The translations under genes were made by a program, and so were the position numbers. A stretch of DNA of 64,000 nucleotides from contig NC_045138.2 of NCBI RefSeq assembly GCF_008831285.2, positions 40,973,115-41,037,114 on the forward strand. Direction: 5' to 3'. A model generated the notes under the pieces. It saw only the letters and a program-made list of their open reading frames with translations, ran no database searches and was not told the DNA's origin. The stretch is from Nymphaea colorata (lineage: Eukaryota > Streptophyta > Magnoliopsida > Nymphaeales > Nymphaeaceae). This document shows, piece after piece, positions 24,758 to 49,451 of the stretch. How positions within the stretch are numbered: the first letter of the stretch is position 1; each line of letters begins with the position of its first letter.

Positions 24758-24959
24758 CCGGCTTCGTACCATCAAATCGAGTGATTCATAATGTCTAAAT
24801 CAACAGTAATCGATTCTGTACGCTGGAATTAGCTGACTTGTTTAACGAAAAAGCCTCAAAATGTCTTTCGTGTTGGTGTTTTAATTAAGTTATTAACAAT
24901 TATTTTATAGAAATAGGACAGCAATTCTGAACTCTAGAATTGGACGGTCCGGACCTGCT

Positions 24960-25910
24960 ATGGGAACCAGGCGCCGGACGGTGAGGTCTCTGGTGGCGAA
25001 GCTGACGAGGGCCGCCACTCCTGACCGCGAGCAGGCGGAGGCTGTCGCGGAGCTTCGTCTCCTCTCGAAGGTCGACGGTGGCAGCGGCGGAGGTAACGCC
25101 GACGGAGACGACTACCGCCTCGCCATCGCCGAAGAGGGAGCGATCCCTTTCCTCGTCGGCGCCCTCCGGAGCGAAGACGCTACCCTTCAGGAGAACGCCA
25201 TCACCACGCTCCTCAACCTCTCCACCCTCGCCCCTAATCGCGAGCTTATCATGTCTGCCCGCGGCCTCTCTGACGCCATCCTACACGTTCTCCGCTTTGG
25301 CGCCACCTCCTCGGCCGTCCGCAACGCTGCTGCCACCGTCTACAGCCTCCTGATCGACGAACCCTTCCGCCCGATACTCGGCAGCAAGCCGGAAATTGTT
25401 TCCGCCGTCGTCGACCTCCTTCGCTCGCCAGACGCCGGCCCAATGACCACCAAGGACGCCCTCAGGGCTCTCTTCGTCATGGCCCTCTACCCTCTCAACC
25501 GCCCCAAATTGGTAGACTCCGGCGTTGTTCCCGCGCTCTTCTCCCTCCTAATTTCTTCGCCGATTGCCGGAATCGTTGACGACGCAACCGCCGTGGCAGC
25601 GCAGGTGGCTGGGTGCACCGAAAGCCTCGACGCGTTCAGGGCGGTCTCTGGGATCAGGGTTCTGGTCGCCTTGCTGGAGAGCGGGTCCGGCAGGGCGAAG
25701 GAAAACGCTGCGTCTGCTCTACTCAACTTGGCCCGTTGCGGCGGAGATGAAGCTGTGCGGGAGATCCTAACCGTCGACTCCGTCGTTGCCGCAGCCACCG
25801 ATCTCGTTGATGTTGGGAGCGAGAGGGCCAGGAGCAAGGCGAGCGCGTTACTCTCCATCTTGGGCGTCCAGGATATCCTTCATCCCCTCTCTGACGGGTC
25901 GAACTATTGA
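24960..25910 (+). CDS. Intronless ARM-repeat protein of the plant U-box/ARM type, lacking the U-box
   Basis: A 316-residue single-exon protein made almost wholly of armadillo helical repeats, a protein-binding scaffold. Repeat signatures recur: NAITTLLNLSTLAPNRELI (about 79-97), VRNAAATVYSLL (about 119-130), TKDALRALFVMALYPLNRPK (about 164-183), and KENAASALLNLARCGG (about 247-262). These match the C-terminal ARM array of plant PUB E3 ligases, but there is no U-box N-terminal to it. The protein starts with a short basic segment (MGTRRRTVRSLVAKLTR), so ligase activity is not expected. The start is the first ATG after a TATA box at 24750, and stops precede it in frame. The coding region is very GC-rich against an AT-rich background. 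The exact subfamily cannot be fixed by eye. Confidence 0.9.
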   Translation: MGTRRRTVRSLVAKLTRAATPDREQAEAVAELRLLSKVDGGSGGGNADGDDYRLAIAEEGAIPFLVGALRSEDATLQENAITTLLNLSTLAPNRELIMSARGLSDAILHVLRFGATSSAVRNAAATVYSLLIDEPFRPILGSKPEIVSAVVDLLRSPDAGPMTTKDALRALFVMALYPLNRPKLVDSGVVPALFSLLISSPIAGIVDDATAVAAQVAGCTESLDAFRAVSGIRVLVALLESGSGRAKENAASALLNLARCGGDEAVREILTVDSVVAAATDLVDVGSERARSKASALLSILGVQDILHPLSDGSNY

Positions 25911-30117: not shown

Positions 30118-32985
30118 TCAAGGGAAAGTGGATGGAGTAGGCCTTGTTGTTAAGGAAGGCCTCATTTTCACAATTTGGTGATCACCAACCCCCATCTTCC
30201 TCGCTGTTAAACTTGCATCTAGGAATCGCTTCACAGCATCTTCTGCGTACTGCTTCCCTTGCCTCACCGTCATCTTCTCCCCTATCTTGTCCGGGAACCC
30301 GACCAGCTCGTGGTCGCCGACCAGGACGGCGGCCAGCTGAATGAGCTCATCCTGAAACTGGCTCAAGTTCGCTTCCTCATTTGCATCAGTCATCCTCATT
30401 CTCTTTGGAGTAGGAAGTTGCTCTGTGTACCAAGATAAGAAGCTCAGGGGTTCAGTGAGATGATATGTTTTAGATTCCCAAACTTAAGTTATGGAAGACA
30501 AGTTTTCAGCAGTAAAACTTATCTCTATTCTGAAAGTGAAAGTTGGGCCTCTTAGATACAAACCAAACTTTTGTGGTGTTCCAAAACTAGCAGCAAATAG
30601 ATACAACGACAAGTTGAAGCATGATGGGGATCACTAATTGCAGGTTTCATGAGGTTAAATTGGAGTTTAATTAGCAGGATTACTGCTAATACTGACCTGG
30701 GCAATCAGTTCTTGGAGTTGTTCTTGCCTGCAGGATCTTCTCGAAGGTTCCAGCCCAGGCGGCCCTCTTCGTAAGATAATTAGAGTTCAGATTGAAGAGC
30801 TTCTTCACAGTGGCCGAAACCGATGAATGCTCAAATTCTGAAGATGGGAACGGCCCGTCCGGTCTATGCACAACTTCATTTCCAAAAACACAACAAGTGT
30901 TAGCTCAAACTGTATTAATCTATAACAAGGCAGTCGAATTAGCAACATTAGATCAGTCCCAAGAAGTTCCAATCTTTGTAAACGATTTGTTCGGTGAATC
31001 AGCTTTTCAATGGATGAAACCAAATGCACGTCAAGGGTTTTCTAGTGATTTAAAGATCAACGGCCGAAAAATTCATAAAAGATATATGCTTAAAAAAATA
31101 TACGTTGTCATGTTACTTAAGTTGGTAGAGGTGCTAATCATGTTAGATTTATAATCACAAAGCACGCACTAAATTACCTGCTTTCAAAATGTGAGATCTC
31201 AGTATCACAAAAGATACAAAGCCTCAAATAATGCAAACATCAAAACTGTTTGACAAAACAACACTAGGAAACAAAACTACAGACAGAAATTAGACAAGAA
31301 ACATCATTTTCTTTGTATGTTTTCAAATGGTCGCCTAGCATCTCCTCACATACGTGTGTGAGTGTGAGATGAATGGTTAATTAAAAAAAATATTTCTTTC
31401 TTTTTTTTTATTATTGGTCCTCATTTCACACAGTTGACAACTTGACCTCATTTATAGTTCTCTCGTTTATTCATAATTTCGTATTCACCGTCCACGCCAT
31501 CGGCCTCCCTTACCAACCCCGATAATAATACTAATAATAATAATAATAAATGGACAAAAATGAACAGCGCAACATTTTCAGGTAAGCCGAAAACAGTGGG
31601 GACTGAGCGTGACGAAAGTTTCAACGAGAGAGTCTACGTTCTCCCGAAATTCTCATCTTACACCGTCCTGTATCGACTCGGCACCGGAAAAAAAAATCTC
31701 CGACGTCTCCGATCGACCAAAGTTAAAATTCAGTTGCCCAGTGATATTAATATCGGACAACGATCAGTCGATATCCTAAAAAAATGATAGTAAAACCCCA
31801 TCTAGGAATCGGGCTCTGAAGAAGAAAAGTAGAAAAGAGAATGGAGGAAGGCGTACCGGTTGCTTTCTCGATCCAAGGGGAGATGGCGATGGTGGGGACT
31901 CGGACCCCAAGGCGGTCGAACTTGAAGAAGAAGGGTTCGGGACCGACGATGCCGTCGGGGCTGGGTACGTCGCGTACCGGGGTGGGTACGTGGTCGTAGA
32001 AGCCGCCGTGCTCGTCGTAGGTGATGAGGAGCAGCGTCTCGTTCCACTGCGGGCTGGACCGGAGCGCCTCGTACACCTCCTTCACCAGCAACTGCCCCTG
32101 GTACACGTCGTGCGACGGGTGGTCGTCGTTCGCCGGAAGAGCCTTCGAGTCCATGTACCGCTGCTCCACCACCACGTAATTGGGCAGCCGCCCCGCCCTC
32201 GCGTCCGCCTTGAACCGCAGGTCGTACGGCCGGAACTTGGTCGCGAACCTCAGCTTCCTCAGGCTCTTGTAGAACATTGTCGCTGGAATGTTCTGGTAGT
32301 ATATCCCGAACGACAGCCCCTCCTCGTCCAGGCAGTCGAAGATGGTCCGCTGCGGGTACCCCTCGATCAGCAGCGCCGGAATGTTGCTCGTCGCTCCGTG
32401 CGACGTCGCCGAGTGCACGTACAGCCGGTTCGGCTGCGTCGACGCCGGGACGGAGGCGAACCACCGGTCGAACACGGCGAACTCAGAAACGAGCGCCTGG
32501 TAGACGGGCACCGACTCGGGCTCGAAGCCGTTCATCACCTCTGTCGGCATCGCGGTGGAGTTGGTCATGGAATAGGCCTGCTGGACGAAGCCGTTCATGG
32601 GTGCCGGGAAGGCGGATACATCCTCAGAACCAAAAATCTGCTCGCGTATTGCCTGGAACGAGTGGCCCGGGTCGGCGTCGACGTACTGGGACGTGTTGTT
32701 GAAGAAGAAGCGAGGGGAGCTCGGGTCCGTGGCCTTCAGGCGGTTCGACTCAGCGCCGGTGACGCCGTCGATCTCCGGGTTGATGCGCTTCATCCAACCC
32801 AACATGTGGTCGAAGGACCGGTTCTCCATCACCAGCACGACCACCGTCTTTATCGGCCCCGGGATCGATCCGGTGCGACAAGGGACCGGGTGGAGGACCG
32901 CCAGGGCGATGAGCAGCAGCAGAGTCGCCGGATTCCGGCGAATGGTAGTCATTTTCCGGCGGCCCGTCGTGGTGATCATTGCCAT
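30118..32985 (-). CDS. NPC: Non-specific phospholipase C (NPC1/2/6 group)
   Basis: Hydrolyses phospholipids to diacylglycerol and a phospho-head group; family function in phosphate-starvation lipid remodelling and seed oil metabolism. Three exons, 31857-32985, 30697-30873 and 30118-30422, joined by GT...AG introns, give 536 residues, the usual length. Residues 20-36 form a hydrophobic signal peptide-like core. The phosphoesterase motif ENRSFDH is at 54-60, followed by [38 protein letters not shown] and the metal-binding [16 protein letters not shown]. Exon 2 carries [18 protein letters not shown] and WAGTFEKIL. Exon 3 carries the C-terminal [14 protein letters not shown] and [11 protein letters not shown]. 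The ATG at 32985 is the first in frame; in-frame ATGs at 32979 and 32952 would still leave the hydrophobic core. Exon 1 is GC-rich. Residues match NPC2/NPC6 more than NPC3/4, but this is by eye. Confidence 0.95.
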
Positions 32986-33033
32986 ATCTGCCTTCCCTCT
33001 CAGAGTGAGTGTGATTGAAGAGCGACCGCAACA

Positions 33034-33062
33034 TCGGATCTGATAGGGAGGATTTATTAGAA
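33034..33062 (-). promoter_or_regulatory. Possible core promoter and upstream ATG of the phospholipase gene
   Basis: The minus strand has CTAATAAATCC at about 33051-33062, a weak TATA-like element. An out-of-frame ATG (followed by TTGCGG) lies at about 33034. It would only be in the mRNA if transcription starts upstream of it. Confidence 0.3.
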
Positions 33063-33390
33063 TGCGATCGAAACGTGCCGCCTTCCAATTCGCCGTAGAT
33101 TTTGTTTACGATACGCCCCGATTATCGTTCCAATTTCAGTAAGAGGCAAACAAATAAAGTCTCTGTAAAACTAAATTTTTATTCGGAGATGCGTCGCCGC
33201 CGAGTCATCGAACTTTTATTGCTATTTATTGGCCAGACGTGTCAGACGAAATCCATTTTCTTCTCCTACGGGCGGAGGTTTTAATATATGATCTACTTTT
33301 CAGTTATTCAAAAAATTAAGATATATGTCTGATTAAAATACTTTTTCAAATGAAAGATAGAGAGAGAAGGAAACAAACGAGTTTCCTTAA

Positions 33391-34484: not shown

Positions 34485-35123
34485 GTTAAAACGTATTTGA
34501 ACATGGGCCTTAAGGGGTTTCGCATAACTAGTAGGATTAGCTGGTCATTCGCCAATGTCAATTCTTTGTACAAGCCAACACAACCATATATTTTAAAGCA
34601 AACAAAAAAAGAAAAGAAGAGTGTTGATAATGAAGTCTTCTTTTAGTTACTTGGGATTAAAAAGAAAGACACATACACAAAAGATTTTACAGTGATTTAG
34701 AAAGGGCCAAGGCCAAGAGTCATCCTCAGAGACACTAAACTTCCATTATGCCAAATAAAACAAAAAACAAAAGATGCTGAGTCACTTTAAGATAAGGGTC
34801 TAACCGAACGCCAAGTAATGGAAAATGATAATAATGCTTCTAACTACAAACACACGAAACTTATTAAATTAAGATCAAGTGCTACACTAGCCTAGGCTTT
34901 TTCTCAAAAACCATGGAAGCTTCTAGGTTTTGGGGCGGTGGATCGAGCTTCTGTTATGATAACTGGCAATTGAGGTTTGAATGTTGTAGAAATATTTGTC
35001 TTATAACCTCAAGAAATTTTGCGTTTTTTTCTTGGAGGGTGTGTGATTTATGAGACATTATTCACCTCGGGAAGTCAGGCTTGTCATCAGTTTCAATAGA
35101 TTCAATGGCCCCTTAAATAATAA

Positions 35124-35393
35124 GGGTGTGTTTGACAGCAGCAGCGGCTGATTTAGGATTTTTTATTATACAGGACCCACAGTGTAAATAAAAACACAGG
35201 ACGATGCCATTACCGGAAGAAGAGGATTTAAGATCCTCATTTTGTAGCTAAATAAAACCTCATATTTGACTATTTGAGGTCGGATAAGAACAGGGTCTGA
35301 CATAAAATACATAGATAAGATGTTCCTAATGATATCAAATCACCTGATATCTGTCAAATGCCAAATCTCTTTTACCAGTATCAAACGCTCTCG
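35124..35393. mobile_element. MITE-like element with GTGTGTTTGA / AGCGTTTGA termini
   Basis: The left end reads GGGTGTGTTTGACAGCAG. The right end on the reverse strand reads CGAGAGCGTTTGATACTGG. The interior has paired GATATC-type words. It fits the same terminal consensus as the elements at 22747 and 58975. Confidence 0.4.
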
Positions 35394-37515
35394 GTCTCTG
35401 CGTTGGTACTCGACACTTTTTTAGTAATAGTTTTAAGTGAAACGAAATCCAGCCCCAATACGCGGCAGAAGTAAAGACACTAGAACCTTCCAGCAGAAAA
35501 ATCCGGTCTAGGATTGGCGTCTATTGCCTTTTTTTTCAAAAGAGCACAGTAGACCCAATTGCCCATCAAAATTTCATTTTTAAAATCAATATATATATAT
35601 ATCCCCTTTCCTAAAATAGTATAGCTAGTGTGCGACCCGAGTAATAAGATTTTATGTTACATTCAAAATCGTAGTTGTTTTTGCTCCTTGTTTTTAAAAA
35701 CTGAAATTGGTCCTAACTAGCACGGGATACTACACTTAGAATGTTCAGATTGGGTAGTCATTGGATCTCAAGTTGAGTATCAAACTAGGATTTGATTCAG
35801 TTATGAAACCATACAACGAGTCTGAGTCTGATTAATAATTGGGTACAGATATCCTAATCAGATCAAAAGTAAATGAATTTGAAATAGAATTGATAGACTA
35901 GCATATATATTGGGAATGGCTGAATGATAACTCTGGCAATCAAGAGTCACCCAGCTCACTCATTAGAACCATTCGATCCGAGAGAGAAACAAGAAGAAAA
36001 AAGTGTGAACAGTACTAGTGAAGAAAATGCCTATCCCATTTTTCATTGTTTATTTCTCAACCATCTATCACGATGGACCGGAGGACCTTATGAGTAAGCT
36101 GGGTGATTCTGGAATCTGAATAGTCGAAGTCACCATTCAGTTTTCTGGTTCAGTTTCATTCCAGAGTGAAATGATGTTATTTTTGTCAATTGGTGCAACT
36201 AGTAATATGCATCTTCAGTAACACTAAACAGGTTTTCTTTACTTTTCATACACGGTAAAACGTTAATGGCAAAACCCATAAGAGAAAAAACCCTTGTGAG
36301 GACATCATGGAAAAGCTTAGGCTGTAAAATGTCATTGGGTCTTGATCCAAGGTCTTTATTTTAACACCTTTGCTTTCAATATGTGCATGGTGTGGGTAAG
36401 TATCAATTATATAACACAAACTAATTGACACATTTAACTCTCATAAACCAGATATATTTTCGACTTATTTCCCGATGAATGTTGTCCTTGTGAATGGTAG
36501 GAAAACAAAGTCTTTTGATAATATTGTTAGGAAAATGTATAAGTCTTAGTACCGTTCATTAAAAAAAGCCTTTGATTAATGTAACTCTAGCTTATCACTA
36601 CCATGGGATAAAAGAGAGTAAAATACCCTTAATATAAACACATTTTATGTTGCTTAGTTTACATCAGCTTCTATCCACGTTACCAAATCGTATTATTAAC
36701 TCATGTTTAACTAATATATATATTTGAACTTTTTATATGCTTTAATAATCAAACTGGTTAAGACTGAGCGACAAAATGACTTTTCAATCAATATCAAAAT
36801 TACTTAGGTGAAGATACAACAAACTCTATTTCCTTTTTCCCGTAGAAACAAATGAAAGAGAAGGCAACCTTCGCCCCTACATAAGTTTTGAAAATGTACC
36901 TTCTTCTAGTATTTGCTTTGAACGAAGAAACAATAAAATCTAATATAATTTGTCATAAGAGCAAATAAAAATGGTGAGATTTCCTTATTCTTCTGCATAA
37001 ATCAAGTGGGTATCACATAAAATAATGAATACGACTTTTAAAGTTAATTATAAATCAAAACTAAGCTTTTGACAAGGGCTAAATATCAGTGCTTACAAGG
37101 AGAGACCTGGTTGACTATTTAAGCCTAGGGTTTTAAAGACACGAGTCTCTCGTTGTTCGAGTACAAGGGCAAAACAAACAAAAACTTATATATATATATA
37201 TATTCTGACACATGGTAGAATATGCTTGAAGAAGAACAAGAACATTGTTAAGCAAGAAAAATCTTCAAGAGGTCAAAGCTCCTCTCGCATTTCCTCAGTT
37301 CCTTGTGTCGAAAGTTTTTTCGGGATCAATGTGGAGAGGAAGACATCAACTAAGCGACTAAGTAATCAAATTCCAGGCGTTGGCATCGAAGACTGGTATA
37401 AAGGTTGCTTGTAATGGCTGCAAATCCTTCAATATTCCCTTATTCTCCATGTCTAGCTTCTTGTAGCACCCTTCCCCCACTTCATGCAATAAAGGAATCA
37501 ACAGCCAACACCGTG

Positions 37516-37523
37516 TATATAAA
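37516..37523 (+). promoter_or_regulatory. TATA box of small-protein gene copy 1
   Basis: TATATAAA lies 49 bases before the ATG at 37565, which predicts a short 5' UTR of about 20 nt. The surrounding CAGCCAACACCG and GCAGCGATCGATCA words are kept in copy 2. Confidence 0.7.
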
Positions 37524-37564
37524 GTTGCAGCGATCGATCACACATTCACACGCACGCTTTAACA

Positions 37565-37596
37565 ATGGATCAATCCTCGAACCAGGCAGACAATGG

Positions 37597-37648
<52 letters not shown>

Positions 37649-38275
37649 TGTGCGTGTATATGTGTGCAGCCAAATTACATTTGTGTTAGCCCTCGTCGAC
37701 CTTTCAACGTTGCTTCTTCCTTATTCCTCCTGCTTAGTGACTTTGTCTTCCACAGGAGCCAATTCAAGAGGAGACTCGGGAAGAGGCTTGCCTCCATCGG
37801 ATCAGAAGGCGAAAACCAGTAAGAACTAAGGATTTTGATAAGCCTTTGATCTGTGCCAGCAGTGTGCCAACTACGCACGCTAGAATTCTGTTTTCATATT
37901 TCAGCAGCCTCAACAGAACCCCTCTCACCCTCTTTTGTTCTTTTGCTTCTTCCTTGTTTCTACCTTGCCTTCCGTAGGTGACATTAATTCAGGAGGAGAC
38001 TCCAGCCAGGTGCGGGATGAAAGAGCAAAAACCAGTAAGAATCAGGGCTGTCGACAAGCCTTTGATAAAGATTCTAAAGCCTGTTTTCATACGATCATCA
38101 GCCCCAATAAGGAGGCAGATTCTACTTTCTGCTCATTTGTCTCATGCTACTACTCTCTATTAGACCATATCCTACATGCATGAATTGATAAAATGGTAGA
38201 TCAAATTTTTGCTACTGCATGAATCTAAGCCTCCGTTATGTGCATGCAGTGTCAATAGAAATAGTCGGTGCCTGA
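37565..38275 (+). CDS. Unrecognised small hydrophilic protein, tandem copy 1 (58 aa, 4 exons)
   Basis: Exons 37565-37595, 37756-37818, 37978-38034 and 38250-38275, all bounded by AG and GT, join into a 58-residue protein. It begins MDQSSNQADNG, continues through the repeat-like blocks SRGDSGRGLPPSDQKAKT and INSGGDSSQVRDERAKT, and ends MSIEIVGA. I know no family with this sequence. It is rich in Ser, Gly, Asp, Gln and Lys, and has no cysteine, signal peptide or membrane segment. Exons 2 and 3 have the same phase (1-1) and similar sequence, so they derive from one exon. The start is in good context (AACAATGG) 49 bases after a TATA box. The second copy (38780-39510) keeps the whole gene structure. 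Expression is not shown by the sequence. Confidence 0.65.
37601..37645. repeat. (CT)22 microsatellite in intron 1 of small-protein copy 1
   Basis: About 45 bp of CT begins 6 nt into the intron, directly after the exon 1 donor. Copy 2 has a shorter CT tract followed by GT repeats at the same place. Confidence 0.95.
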
Positions 38276-38728
38276 ACCTTCTTTCTTTTGGTGATGTAAG
38301 AACAATGAGTTCAGATATTCTTTTGTCTAGATTGCCTAAATAAACAACAAAATCAGAAACAGTAGCAACGGCAGAACTTTCTATTTTTTGTGAAGAAATA
38401 AACGAGAACAGAGGTTAAATAAAATGAGAAATGGGCTAACTCCAATTCTGGTTGATGCTTCTAGATTCAGTACTGTAAGATCTCTTAAAAAAAAACTTAG
38501 AAATTAAAATTGACAACCGACTTTTCACCGATCGGCCTGGCCAGCAACGCTAAACAAATAACAGGAACAAGGCAAGGTAATTAAATTCCATGCGTAGGCA
38601 CCTAAGACTGGTATAAAGGTTGCTTGCAATGGCTGCAAATCCTTCAATATTCCCTTACTCTCCATGTCAAAATTTATGTAGCACCCTTCCCCCACTTCAT
38701 GCAATGAAGGAATCTACAGCCAACACCG

Positions 38729-38737
38729 TATATATAT
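38729..38737 (+). promoter_or_regulatory. TATA box of small-protein gene copy 2
   Basis: A TATATATA run 51 bases before the ATG at 38780, aligned with the TATA box of copy 1. Confidence 0.7.
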
Positions 38738-38779
38738 AGTAGCAGCGATCGATCATACATTCCCACGTACGCATCAACA

Positions 38780-39510
38780 ATGGATCGATCCTTGAACCAG
38801 TCAGATATTGGTGCTCTCCTTCTCTCTCTCTCTTTCGTTTGTGTGTGTATGTGTGTGTAGCCAAATTACATACTCCTTGCGTTTGTGAGACACCTTCTAA
38901 ATGCCCTCATTGATCTTTCTCTTTTGCTTCTTCCTTATTTCTGCTTACTGACTGTCTTCCACAGGTGCCAATTCAGGAGGAGACTCCAAAAAAGGCTCGC
39001 CTCCGTCAGTGGTATCAGAGACTCCATCGGATCAGAAGGCAAAAACCAGTAAGAACTAAGGATTTTGATAAGCCCTTGATCTCTCCCGATAGTGTGCCAA
39101 CTACGCACTCTGACAGAATCTGTTTTCATATTTCAGCAGCCTCAACAAAAGCCCCTCTCACCCTTTTTTTTTATCCTGATCTTTCTTCTTTACTTCTTCC
39201 TTGTTCCTGCCTTGTCTTCCATAGGTGACAACCCAGGAGGAGACTCCAGCAAGGCGCCGGTTGAAAGAGCGAAAACCAGTAAGAATTTAGGCTGTCGATA
39301 AGCCTTTGATCTAAAGCCTGTTTTCATATATCATCAGCCCCAAAAAGGAGGCAGATTCTCCTCTCTGCTCTTTCGTCTCATGCTAGTACTATGTTAAGAC
39401 AATATCCTACAAGCATGAATTGATAAAATGGTAGATCAAACTTTTGCTAGTGCATGAATCTAAGCCTCCACTACGTGCATCCAGTGTTGATAGAAATAGA
39501 CGGTGCCTGA
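38780..39510 (+). CDS. Unrecognised small hydrophilic protein, tandem copy 2 (64 aa, 4 exons)
   Basis: Exons 38780-38810, 38965-39048, 39225-39278 and 39485-39510 give 64 residues: MDRSLNQSDIG, then SGGDSKKGSPPS, SDQKAKT, PGGDSSKAPVERAKT and finally MLIEIDGA. Every donor, acceptor, phase and the stop codon align with copy 1. Exon 2 is 21 nt longer (seven extra residues, VVSETPS region) and exon 3 is 3 nt shorter; exons 1 and 4 are identical in length. Length changes only in multiples of three, next to freely varying introns, suggest that both copies code for protein. Function unknown. The product carries more lysine and proline than copy 1. Confidence 0.65.
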
Positions 39511-39769
39511 ACCTTTTTTTTTTTTTGCTACTGAAGAATAATGCGTTCCAGATTTTTTTTGTAGATTGCTTAAATAAACAACAAAATCAGAAACGGTGGC
39601 AATAGCAGAACTTTTCTCTTTTTTGTGAAGAAATAAACAAGAACAGAGGTTAAAATGAAATGAGAAATGGGACAACTCCAATACTGCTTGGGTGCTTCTA
39701 GATTCAGTACTGCATGATTTCTTAAAAAAAAAAGGATTATTTTTCATTTCTGGATGCATAGAATCCCTT

Positions 39770-41640
39770 TGGCTCTTACTCTAAAAGGTGACCATGAGTT
39801 TGTATTAGAAAAAACCAGTTCCAACCTTAAGCGGAAAACTCATTGAAGATGAAAAAGAAACTCATGAAAAGTACTTGAAGAACGACTTAATGTTTTATGA
39901 CTCTCATAATGGTTTATATGGATAATAATGTATTTCGGGTATTTAATGAAGACGAGACTACTGAAGCAACGTAAGAGGCCTCTTCAAAATATCGCACTAC
40001 ATCTTAGACTCGTATCTAACTATCAATAGAACACTATAATTCATAACAAATGGAGGAGACTGATAATGTAATGGAAGGCTGTGCATATGAAGAAACTTGA
40101 TTTAGCAGAACACTAATTTAGATGGGGAAAAATTCCTCTTGTGATGTTTTGAAAATTGAGTCGTATAGACTCGATGTTGGTAGCATAAGTGTCTTTTTGA
40201 GTGATGTTCTCTCCGTTTCTTCAATGAGAAAGAACTTGATCTCTGTTCTTCCCTTGGTTGGTAAAAGCTTTGAATCACTCTGTTTTAAATATATGAAAGA
40301 AAAGGGAAAATTCTCTAAGTGGATATTGGAAAAAGAGCATAAAGTATTCAAGCTATATGAGAGAAGTAATAATACCCTGATTTGGTCGTATAAATTGACT
40401 GTGCCTCAATTATGGACGTTAATTACATGCATAAGACACCTACACATTTATAAACATAAAGAGAATGAAGAATATGAAACTTTAATGCAACTCACCCTGA
40501 AGAATGTGAGTCTTATTTTATGGAAAGATGGCAAGGAACCCATCAAATGTGATTCATGCCACTGATTTGTTAGAAATCATTCACACAAATATTTATGGGT
40601 TGTTAGAAGTCCAAAGTCATGGTGGCATATTGTAGTCTAGAACTTTTGTTGATCAATTATCAATGTTTTGCTATTTTGTTTGATCCAACATAAACTTAAG
40701 GCTTCTTTAAGGTTAATTAAAGAATAGAAAAATAAACTTGAAAGACAACTTGGACAACATGTTAAAACAGTGGATTGGATCAAGGATATAAATGTAGCTC
40801 GATGAATTCTCTACATTATGTTGTGAACACTGGACCCTCTTAAACATGGTGAGATCCAGTATTAATAGAACTATCCAAATTCTTTTGGGAAGAAGTTGTA
40901 CATATGTACAATGGATGTATGGTTTGAATGGATTGCCCTACAAAATAGTCCAAACTATTCTTTAACCCATCTAAAGATCTGTAGTCCATCTAAAGATCTT
41001 AGATCCAAAACTTATTGGATAATAAATATGGGAGATATCCTCATTAGCAATTCAATGAAAGATTGAGACCGCCCCTTCCCCACCACGAGGTCCAGGGCTA
41101 CTTAAGGATCTGATGTCTAAAAGAATCTAAAGGCTACATATTATATCTTCAAGCTAAGAAACTTATTGAGAGCACAGATATAGTTCCTAAAAGGGAAAAA
41201 AAAAACTTAACAGTGAATCAACAGATTCAATTGAAGATCATTTGACTTACTAGATGACCTTTATGACCATGATGAACACTTAGTTAATCAACTGAGTATA
41301 CATAGTAGTTTGGCAATGAAAACTGGTGATGATCTTTCCATAACTGGATAAACTCTAAACGGTCAAAAAAGGTCAAAAGTCTCTATAATATTTAAAAGAT
41401 TAGCATATGCATTCAATGGAGGGGACGAGTCACTTTGTTGGCCTTAAAAAAATGAACGATTTGACATGTATTGAAATCATTAACTCAAATAATAAATGTG
41501 ATGAATGAAGAGGTAGAGTCAATAGAAAGAACTTGGGAATTGTCTGAAAGAAAGAAAACCTACTGGTTGTAAGCAGGTAAAGAAGAAATTTCAAGTAAGA
41601 TGGTTCCATGAACACACACAAAAAAAAAAAAGTGAGACTA
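39770..41640 (+). mobile_element. Decayed Ty1/copia retrotransposon
   Basis: The clearest part is an open frame at 40122-40565 with the gag-pre-integrase pattern (LSDVLSVSSMRKNLISVLPL, GKFSKWILEKEHKVFKL, then LTLKNVSLILW and KCDSCH). Downstream, with stops and frameshifts, come integrase-like pieces: LLEIIHTNIYG near 40568-40600, TFVDQL near 40640, and residues resembling the RTIQILLGRS and LNGLPYKIVQ segments at 40865-40960. No intact gag, reverse transcriptase or LTR pair was found. The element cannot be functional. It sits directly after the duplicated small-protein genes. Confidence 0.7.
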
Positions 41641-41968
41641 GTGGCGAAGAGTTGAGCTCAGAAAATGAAATATATTATTCATAAATTTATTGGTGGTAAA
41701 TATATATTCTTGGAACACCATTCCGGGAACAACCATTTCCGTGACGCCTGTTCCTGGTGCACTCTCAGCGTTCCAGCGAAGACAATCGAACGTGCAGTAG
41801 CGTCTGTAGGATACTTTTAGCCCAATTCCCTGTGATGGTCAGGTTCTAATCCGGTTTTTTTCCCTTCTCCTTCAATTGAAAATCTCTGAGATCGAACGGA
41901 CGCATACTCAAGTTTATATGAAAGTTTTTAAAGTATAGTTTTTTTATTCTCGCATTGGCAATTCATAG

Positions 41969-42988
41969 TGAAAAGGAATGGGGACAAGACAAATGATGAA
42001 CTGATGAAGGAGATAGAGAATATGGTGCTGTTCAAGGAACTGATCTCAAAACCCGTCGACTTTGTTGATTTCTACGATGGCCTCTCCCGCATCTTCGAGT
42101 AAAACTCTCGTCTCATGTTCTTTTGCATTTGTAGATGCCTTAGATGATGCCCATGACCAACTTTCTTAACGCAAAGTTGAACATGAATATTGTGCTTTTC
42201 TTTCTTGGGCCTTTCTACAAATTTAATTTAATATATGACCAACTTTTGATCATTTCTCAAATGGAGAACGGCAGAACTGCAGCTACTAGGCCTATCTGTT
42301 TATATCGTTCCTGGTCCTGCTTTACTTTGATTATTATGTGAATAAAAAGATCAACAATAGGTTTTTGTTAAAAGTTACCATTTTCCTTCCGCAAGTCCAT
42401 TACGTGAAACTTTGCAATCTCCGGCCGCCCGATTTGATGATACTTTTCCTTGAGAAAATGTTTTTCCTTCTTTTGTTTAGAAAGCCCAAAGCCATACCGA
42501 GAGCTGGTCGAAATTAAATCGTTGCATAACATGTTTTAAGAAGAATTGTAACCGTTCACTCCCGTTCAATGTCACTAGAAAACTGAGTGTCAAAAGAGGT
42601 GGCTCACACATCAGTTTGCCGGAGAAGGAATGGATCAAGAAAAAGTTTGAGGTCTCAAGATTGAACTCTTTCTTCTAGACTTAAACTTTCCAACACAGTG
42701 CAACCAAATGAAAAATAAAGGAATTTTTTGATTTTATTGCAGGACTGTGCAGGGGACAGGCACTACCTGAGCAAAGAAGAGTTTAGGAAATTCCTCGAGG
42801 AGATATTGAAAAGCGGCGTAGGATTAAGGAATTACGAGATGGCCATGTATCTAGCAGCAGTTCCCGTTCTTTCTGTCATCATCAAGCCCTTCATTCCCGG
42901 CACCATCTCTGAGATCCCTAATAGTTTCTTCATTCCTGTGGTAACTTCAGCTACTGCATTCATTTTAGCGCACATGAGGAAAATATAG
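41969..42988 (+). CDS. Unrecognised small protein with hydrophobic C-terminus, 3 exons visible
   Basis: Exons 41969-42098, 42481-42506 and 42753-42988 join in frame with GT...AG introns. The product has at least 129 residues: KRNGDKTNDELMKEIENM, FKELISKPVDFVDFYDGLSR, the microexon-encoded KPKAIPRA, then GDRHYLSKEEFRKFLEEI and a hydrophobic tail (PVLSVIIKPFIPGTI, FFIPVVTSATAFILAH) ending HMRKI. The GDRHYLSKEEF block resembles the second half of an EF-hand, but no full calcium loop is visible. The tail could form one or two membrane segments. Exon 3 must use the acceptor after CTGTGCAG; the acceptor 11 bases upstream would break the frame. The start is unsettled: exon 1 begins with TG after an AG, so an upstream exon ending in A would create a split ATG, or an upstream coding exon is missed. 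I do not recognise the family. Confidence 0.7.
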
Positions 42989-43320
42989 CGCAGTTCCACA
43001 AGGACCACAACTATCCGTGTTTCCCAGGAAATTTATGACATCCTCATTGCTGGGATCATCTCTATCGCTAATATGATTTATATTCTTAGCGGATTATTTG
43101 GGATAGAGTGCTTATGTGTATGACTATATGAGGACATTCAAATCCAACAAAATGAATAAACATATTTCGGCAAGAGACATTACTGGCGTAGATGTAAAAG
43201 TAAAAGCACGCATCTTTGGCGAGTAAACAAAAAGACTTAAACGTCCTCGGTTGACAAGAGGAGGGAGCAAAGGTAATAGGCTATATTTTGAATGAGCTTG
43301 AATAAAATAGTGCTTGAACA

Positions 43321-48100: not shown

Positions 48101-49299
48101 GGAAAGAGCCTTATTGATTGTAAGATAGAATAACGCCCTTAGGTATTTGCTCTTCAACTTATACATCTCATGTGTATGTCAACACAACTTAACAGGTTTT
48201 TCCAACTTTAACAGCGTGCTGGTTTCTTGGTTCTATAAAATGAACCTAGATATTCAACTATTTGGTGTCTTACTCTTCTATTCACAGCCTAAAGAAGCAA
48301 ATTCTCGTTATCTTCGATCTATCAAACCCTTTCAATTATGTGGTTCCATTTGGTTCTCCCAATTTGCCTCACGCGAAAATCAAATCCAGATAACTTCTCT
48401 CCAACCAAGCAAATAACCATGTAGAAAGAAACCCTCGAAATAATGGGGCTAATGAAAAAACAAAAGGATATTCGGATGAGAGAAGAAGCCTGCAGTACGT
48501 GTCAATAATAAACAGCAGCTAGCCCATATCTACGCCTACTAGAAAAGCAAGAGTCACATATGTGAAGCCAAAAAAGAAGAAATGTCCAAGAAACAGAAAA
48601 TGAAGATTCACAGAATTAGGAAATCTTCAGTCTCAAGGATTGCTGTTTCCTTATGTGCTCAACAGGGACAAATTCAATGTCGAAACGTATAAAACACCTC
48701 CACTTTTTACTCAAATCTTTGATCCAATCCCTTGATTTCATGTTCATCAACAATTCCAACACCAAAACCACAAAATTGCAAACTGCAAGAAGAAGCATAT
48801 GCCCGAATCGATTCACCAAGTACACGATGAAAAGCAACACCAGAAGCATAACTCAAAGAGGAATTCAAACAAAGAAGAGAGAAAAAGGAATCACGAAATT
48901 CAGAAAAAGAGCAAACGACGGAGGAAAACAGGAAGAGGCGGGGAACCTGTCGGACATGGTGGCGATGGTGCGGAAGGCAACGATGAGGGATCTGTCGGGA
49001 TTGGAGCCGCGGTTCTGCCACCGGCCGAGGGAGGAGGACAAGAAATCGGACTGGACGCCGTTGGGCTTGGAGATGACGGTGGATAGGCCGCCGTCCGTGA
49101 GGAGAGGGTTGGTGGGGCCGCCGACACGGACGGGGTCGTTGTCGCCGGACTCGTTAGCGAAGGTTCGCCACTCCGACGTCTCGTCGATGCAGTGCGCCTC
49201 CAGCACGAGGCCGCATTCCGAGCACACCGTATCTCCCGCCGAATGGTCGAACACCACCTCCGTATGCTTCTTGCAGTCCCGGCAGTACGGCTCCGCCAT
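45123..49299 (-). CDS. TFIIB: General transcription factor TFIIB, 7 exons, complete
   Basis: Recruits RNA polymerase II to promoters by bridging TBP-DNA and polymerase, and helps set the start site; acts in the nucleus. Exons 48947-49299, 47350-47374, 46504-46633, 46251-46381, 46047-46135, 45340-45416 and 45123-45256 join in frame into 312 residues, the usual plant TFIIB length. The N-terminal zinc ribbon has C6-x2-C9 and C26-x2-C29. The B-reader region SEWRTFAN follows at about 43-50. Two cyclin-like repeats follow, with [20 protein letters not shown] and [19 protein letters not shown] in the first, and [20 protein letters not shown] and [20 protein letters not shown] in the second. The protein ends [10 protein letters not shown]. 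Exon 2 is only 25 nt. The start is the only ATG that provides the zinc ribbon. Exon 1 is GC-rich and followed by a 1.57-kb intron. Confidence 0.97.
47449..47600. repeat. Short direct repeats in TFIIB intron 1
   Basis: AAATGCCCAAGCAATAGCCA (about 47450) and AAATGCCCAAGCAACAGCCA (about 47581) lie 131 bases apart. They could flank an insertion or mark a local duplication. Confidence 0.4.
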
Positions 49300-49451
49300 C
49301 CTCCTCCCTCCCTCTCCTTGTCCCTCTGTCTGCTGCGCTGCTGCTTCTACGTGGGTGTGATCGACGACGATGGTGGCGGTGAGAAGAGCGAGAGAGGGTG
49401 ACCGGTGACAAGAAATAGGGAAAGCGTGGGGATCCTACTGCCTCCCCTCCG

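Follow-up and report, generated by a model that had tools for sequence, protein, structure and literature searches.

The window analysed here is a stretch of 64,000 nucleotides of the forward strand of the Nymphaea colorata genome (RefSeq assembly GCF_008831285.2, contig NC_045138.2, positions 40,973,115 to 41,037,114), which corresponds to C1:40973115-41037114 in the genome that we have searched (407.8 Mb in 783 contigs). It contains a tandem pair of compact units, whose features are listed below in window positions:

37362..38495 (+): tandem unit 1, with promoter, four exons and 3' UTR; direct repeat with 38577-39732
37483..37523 (+): copy 1 proximal promoter, with CATGCA (RY) at 37483, CCAACAC at 37505, CACCGT at 37509 and TATATAAA at 37516
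37565..37595 (+): copy 1 exon 1, 31 nt, with the start codon and the weak donor GTGCGC
37601..37645 (+): CT microsatellite in copy 1 intron 1, 22.5 copies, shorter in copy 2
37756..37818 (+): copy 1 exon 2 (cassette A), 63 nt
37978..38034 (+): copy 1 exon 3 (cassette B, homologous to cassette A together with the flanking intron), 57 nt
38250..38275 (+): copy 1 exon 4 with the stop codon, 26 nt
38339..38344 (+): AATAAA of copy 1, 64 nt past the stop
38577..39732 (+): tandem unit 2, direct repeat with unit 1
38698..38738 (+): copy 2 proximal promoter, with RY at 38698, CCAACAC at 38720, CACCGT at 38724 and TATATATATA at 38729
38780..38810 (+): copy 2 exon 1, 31 nt, with the weak donor GTGCTC
38965..39048 (+): copy 2 exon 2, 84 nt, in frame and 21 nt longer than in copy 1
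39225..39278 (+): copy 2 exon 3, 54 nt, one codon less than in copy 1
39485..39510 (+): copy 2 exon 4 with the stop codon, 26 nt
39573 (+): AATAAA of copy 2, 63 nt past the stop

The first-pass annotation had described this region as two direct copies spanning 37365..39735, and indeed the two units align end to end, with an offset of 1215-1247 nt and an identity of about 87% at aligned sites. The two four-exon models that it had drawn (37565-38275 and 38780-39510) turned out to be exact in their coordinates. The frame is open in both copies with its stop in place, all 12 splice dinucleotides are intact, the six introns are GT-AG and in phase 1 according to the exon lengths, and each of the four internal exons is a multiple of three nucleotides long. 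In both copies the first donor is weak, and it adjoins the CT microsatellite. The start codon of the model stands in the context ACAATGG, and the TATA box that had been placed about 50 bases before an ATG in good context was found at about that distance in both copies; in copy 2 it reads TATATA from 38729.

The predicted products have 58 aa (copy 1) and 64 aa (copy 2), and they share the blocks SDQKAKT, GGDSS and ERAKT and the ending M(S/L)IEI(V/D)GA, in agreement with the blocks first noticed. Both fall on the disordered side of a charge-hydropathy comparison, and no signal peptide was recognised by eye. The description of the protein as unrecognised has also stood: the two products matched none of the Pfam families at E values up to 10, and thus neither belongs to LEA_5 (PF00477) by that search; the 64-aa product had no relative in PDB or IMG/VR, and an alignment of three products had none in the GTDB contigs. 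The whole window gave no match in Rfam at gathering scores and nothing in a tRNA search. A protein search of the genome with the 64-aa product recovered only two exons of copy 2, and this search must be regarded as insensitive because it missed copy 1 and the third copy described below.

To weigh the four-exon model against chance, we have enumerated in copy 1 every four-exon model of 120-260 coding nt within fixed exon and intron limits. There are 64,480 possible models, of which 2,018 (3.1%) are still valid at the aligned places in copy 2. Using a simple splice score made for this analysis, 11 of the 64,480 models, the proposed one included, reach at least the score of the proposed one, and among those 11 the proposed model is the only one conserved in copy 2. 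As a control, the divergence places of the tandem pair were transferred with random letters to 102 stretches of the window (51 places, both strands). A model of equal score was found in 7 of the 102 stretches, and in none of them was such a model also conserved. With new random substitutions placed on copy 1 itself, an equally good model was retained in two of 20 draws.

The indels point in the same direction. Those in exons are multiples of three in 3 of 3 cases, compared with 2 of 15 cases in introns and the 3' flank (Fisher p = 0.012), one of the three exonic indels being deduced from the cassette alignment; with only the two exonic indels between copies 1 and 2 the same test gives p = 0.044. 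An open frame in both copies was a criterion in selecting the model, which favours this outcome. Extra conservation near the splice sites was not found, with 86 of 99 positions identical there versus 497 of 571 in the rest of the gene. The four-exon model moderately beats chance, and its advantage over the controls in splice quality, conservation and exonic indels argues that it is probably real as a splicing unit. A chance gene model laid across a non-genic tandem repeat would draw on the large number of possible models in one copy, the 3.1% that survive in the other and the weak donor of intron 1, but the absence of a conserved equal-score model in the control stretches and the agreement of TATA, start context and AATAAA with the model positions make this explanation very improbable.

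The divergence between the copies tells less in favour of a protein. They differ at 23 of 174 CDS sites (13.2%), at 64 of 496 intron sites (12.9%), at 32 of 218 sites of the 3' flank and at 22 of 203 upstream sites (10.8%). The dN/dS between copies 1 and 2 is 0.54, with a bootstrap interval of 0.22-1.71; it is 0.50 between copies 2 and 3 and 2.6, on 9 differences, between copies 1 and 3, and none of the Fisher tests on these comparisons in the three copies was significant. The first-pass annotation had named a dN/dS near 1 as part of what would speak against its proposal, and the interval for the tandem pair does span 1. Thus, its claim of an intact gene has held for the splice model and the in-frame indels but not for selection, since the CDS diverges like the introns. 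Codon scores, trained on three genes of the window, are negative in the three frames, the proposed frame being the least negative in both copies. The protein evolution is neutral-looking and gives no clear sign that the protein is preserved; on so small a number of sites, mild constraint may still have gone unseen.

These rates bear on two other explanations. The units might be copies of a non-coding RNA gene that is transcribed and spliced and was duplicated along with its promoter, and in which the open frame is incidental or recently lost. We consider this rather unlikely, although it would account for coding sites that change at the pace of introns beside a retained promoter, retained splice sites and retained poly(A)-like signals, for an upstream region of 203 nt that is 10.8% diverged versus 13.2% in the CDS, and for a codon usage unlike that of coding sequence; it does not sit well with exonic indels that are all in frame, with a frame that is open in copies 1 and 2 and, in the third copy, throughout exons 2-4, or with the empty Rfam search. 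Alternatively, the copies could now be functionless, either as neutral duplicates or remains of a small gene that used to work, or as exons belonging to a larger gene model. The neutral-looking rates throughout, the condition of the third copy (truncated, promoterless and interrupted in intron 2 by a fragment resembling a copia LTR) and the presence of only three loci among the best candidates scored in the genome would fit such a decay. However, copies 1 and 2 are free of frame or splice lesions at 13% divergence, and a random redraw on copy 1 seldom retained so good a model (2 of 20). This explanation appears still less probable than a non-coding RNA gene.

Both copies have the same arrangement of motifs in the proximal promoter, where CATGCA, CCAACAC and CACCGT all lie at most about 35 nt above TATATA. 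CNAACAC is a napin-type element. In 213,068 control strand-bases there are 281 TATA clusters, and counting motifs within 60 nt above them gave RY in 12, CNAACAC in 4 and CACCGT in 1; the combination of RY and CNAACAC, present in both tandem copies, occurred in 0 of the 281. According to PMC2770497, the seed storage promoters of Brassicaceae and Fabaceae carry one RY motif just above TATA; the paper also names CACCGT as an E-box in the phaseolin promoter. The likeness of the tandem pair to seed storage protein promoters consists of RY, CNAACAC and CACCGT directly above TATA; it is a likeness of motifs alone. The promoter thus appears to be of a seed-storage-like type, with RY close above TATA in both copies, and the seed-promoter reading is a prediction and no proof, because the motifs were picked after the sequence was seen.

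The genome gave 23 cupin matches and one LEA_5 match; as a positive control we have inspected 10 stretches from the surroundings of the former and one from those of the latter, with gene identities and starts assigned by eye from open frames. In two of four vicilin-like genes (L052, L057) a TATA near the start is preceded by RY at a distance of 49 or 67 nt, and the other two (L053, L056) are without this layout. It is not found at the start of any of five germin-like genes (L054, L058-L061), one of which (L060) shows RY with TATA some 2.4 kb upstream of the start, nor at the start of one other cupin (L055). In the LEA_5 gene (L028) an RY is present at 2001, but the 70 nt below it contain no TATAWA. 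Eleven Cupin_1 matches lie on one strand within 50 kb at C1:25480943-25530209; two of them are probably parts of one gene, and two are germin-like by eye (L058, L059).

Two further observations concern the promoter region of the tandem pair. A second TATAAA is found at 37397 of the window. A second ATG-led frame, beginning MAANPSIFPYSPC and located at 37414-37521, overlies the promoter in both copies, with about 36 codons in common; by eye, the frame of copy 2 stops at the TATA box and that of copy 1 continues to 37686.

The history of the family can be read at several levels. Exons 2 and 3, with their flanking introns, are copies of each other, as seen in blastn pieces of 42-140 nt at 68-84% identity and in the cassette alignment; the cassette exons are alike at 67-76% and the flanking introns at 58-82%, so the exons are no closer than the introns. 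This relationship, newly recognised here, shows that both exons derive from one duplicated intron-exon-intron cassette, and because exons and flanking introns are mutually similar, the cassette duplication of the ancestral unit came first. The entire unit, promoter and 3' UTR included, was then duplicated to give the tandem pair. The copies are not retroposed, because promoter and introns are common to both. Outside the two units, blastn found no further copy in the window (best E 0.21). We have also considered and rejected an origin of the units as a transposon, as there is no inverted repeat of at least 40 nt in 35000-43000.

DNA searches of the genome gave at least three loci among the best candidates scored, low-complexity matches apart, and the promoter alone as query gave two, that is, no promoter homologue beyond the tandem copies. 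A third, promoterless and partial copy, newly recognised here, lies at C5:3636907-3638092 (L008 4408-5598), where three pieces are 91-98% identical to copy 1. It starts within exon 1, lacks the promoter and the ATG, and reaches the 3' UTR; exons 2-4 are open, and GT or AG is present at 6 of 6 retained splice sites. This locus is a DNA-level copy, from part of exon 1 through the 3' UTR, placed on another contig without promoter and start codon. Its intron 2 holds a fragment of about 370 bp (L008 4787-5159) that is copia-LTR-like, because its first letters are TG and it contains TATCA with TGGTATCAGAGC after it, which we take to be the marks of a copia LTR with a primer-binding-site motif. At sites aligned in the three copies, unique changes in copies 3 and 1, respectively, number 6 and 3 of 143 in exons, 16 and 12 of 507 in introns (with the last nucleotides of exon 1) and 4 and 1 of 81 in the 3' UTR.

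Additional matches on C4, C11 and C13 were rejected as copies and set aside as simple-repeat matches, because nothing was covered in them but the intron 1 CT tract (238-300 of the query) and, in copy 2, the CT/GT-rich beginning of intron 1 (1457-1498); a blastn masked for low complexity found no match in those stretches (L009-L011). The 5' flank of the third copy (L008 4262-4409) matches C1:15433733-15433879 (L020 2734-2882) at 85%, and the match stops at the left junction. A segment of about 200 bp at L008 3828-4033, matched whole or partly at more than 30 other places of the genome, is perhaps a small non-autonomous element.

Among known systems, the tandem pair belongs with the orphan small-protein genes of plants, an already known kind, which are likewise short, few in copies, tandemly duplicated, weakly constrained and without a family match in the searched libraries; it differs from them in having four very short exons for its 58-64 codons and in its exon-cassette duplication. 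Our literature search found no publication on orphan or lineage-specific genes of Nymphaea. Prosystemin of the Solanaceae is hydrophilic, lacks a signal peptide and is encoded by a gene lengthened by duplicated exons. The tandem pair resembles it in these three traits, a likeness of architecture only, but its product is far shorter and has no known processed peptide. The Em-type LEA_5 (PF00477) seed proteins are also small, hydrophilic and disordered, and seed expression is proposed for the tandem pair too; however, the tandem genes have four exons and the LEA_5 match of the genome is a separate locus on C8.

We think it fairly likely that the tandem pair is transcribed and spliced. That it is a young orphan small-protein gene is our tentative reading of the locus, slightly short of an even chance, and we are just as hesitant about its translation into a retained protein; expression in the seed is possible but more doubtful. 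If so, the TATA promoter with RY, CNAACAC and CACCGT would drive expression in the maturing seed through B3-type regulators, presumably ABI3/FUS3. Removal of three short introns would leave an mRNA of about 0.3 kb, and its translation would yield a hydrophilic, disordered, cytosolic protein of 58 or 64 aa, most likely a minor, weakly constrained seed protein of the dehydration or storage type. The complete scenario, i.e., a recent seed protein of the water-lily lineage, made by exon-cassette duplication under a seed-maturation promoter and barely constrained in sequence, is rather improbable.

Were that scenario true, a single family of three loci would display cassette duplication, tandem duplication and promoterless dispersal together. 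If expressed, the genes would offer a compact example of how a gene is born and grows in what is probably an early-branching flowering plant, with three nested duplication steps (cassette, tandem pair, promoterless copy) to date and compare, and they would show how genes whose exons are all under 85 nt can escape annotation. If silent, they would show how misleading a convincing splice model alone can be.

Other features of the window lie outside the units. Beside the tandem pair, positions 40122-40562 (+) give a weak Pol_BBD match, below the curated cut-off, in what is a probable retrotransposon remnant. An exon of a phosphoesterase-family gene (PF04185, 336.7 bits), probably a non-specific phospholipase C, is located at 31750-33105 (-). 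An Armadillo-repeat protein of the plant U-box type (PF00514, PF25598) is encoded at 24897-25907 (+), and an exon with a TFIIB-type zinc ribbon (PF08271) at 48868-49434 (-).
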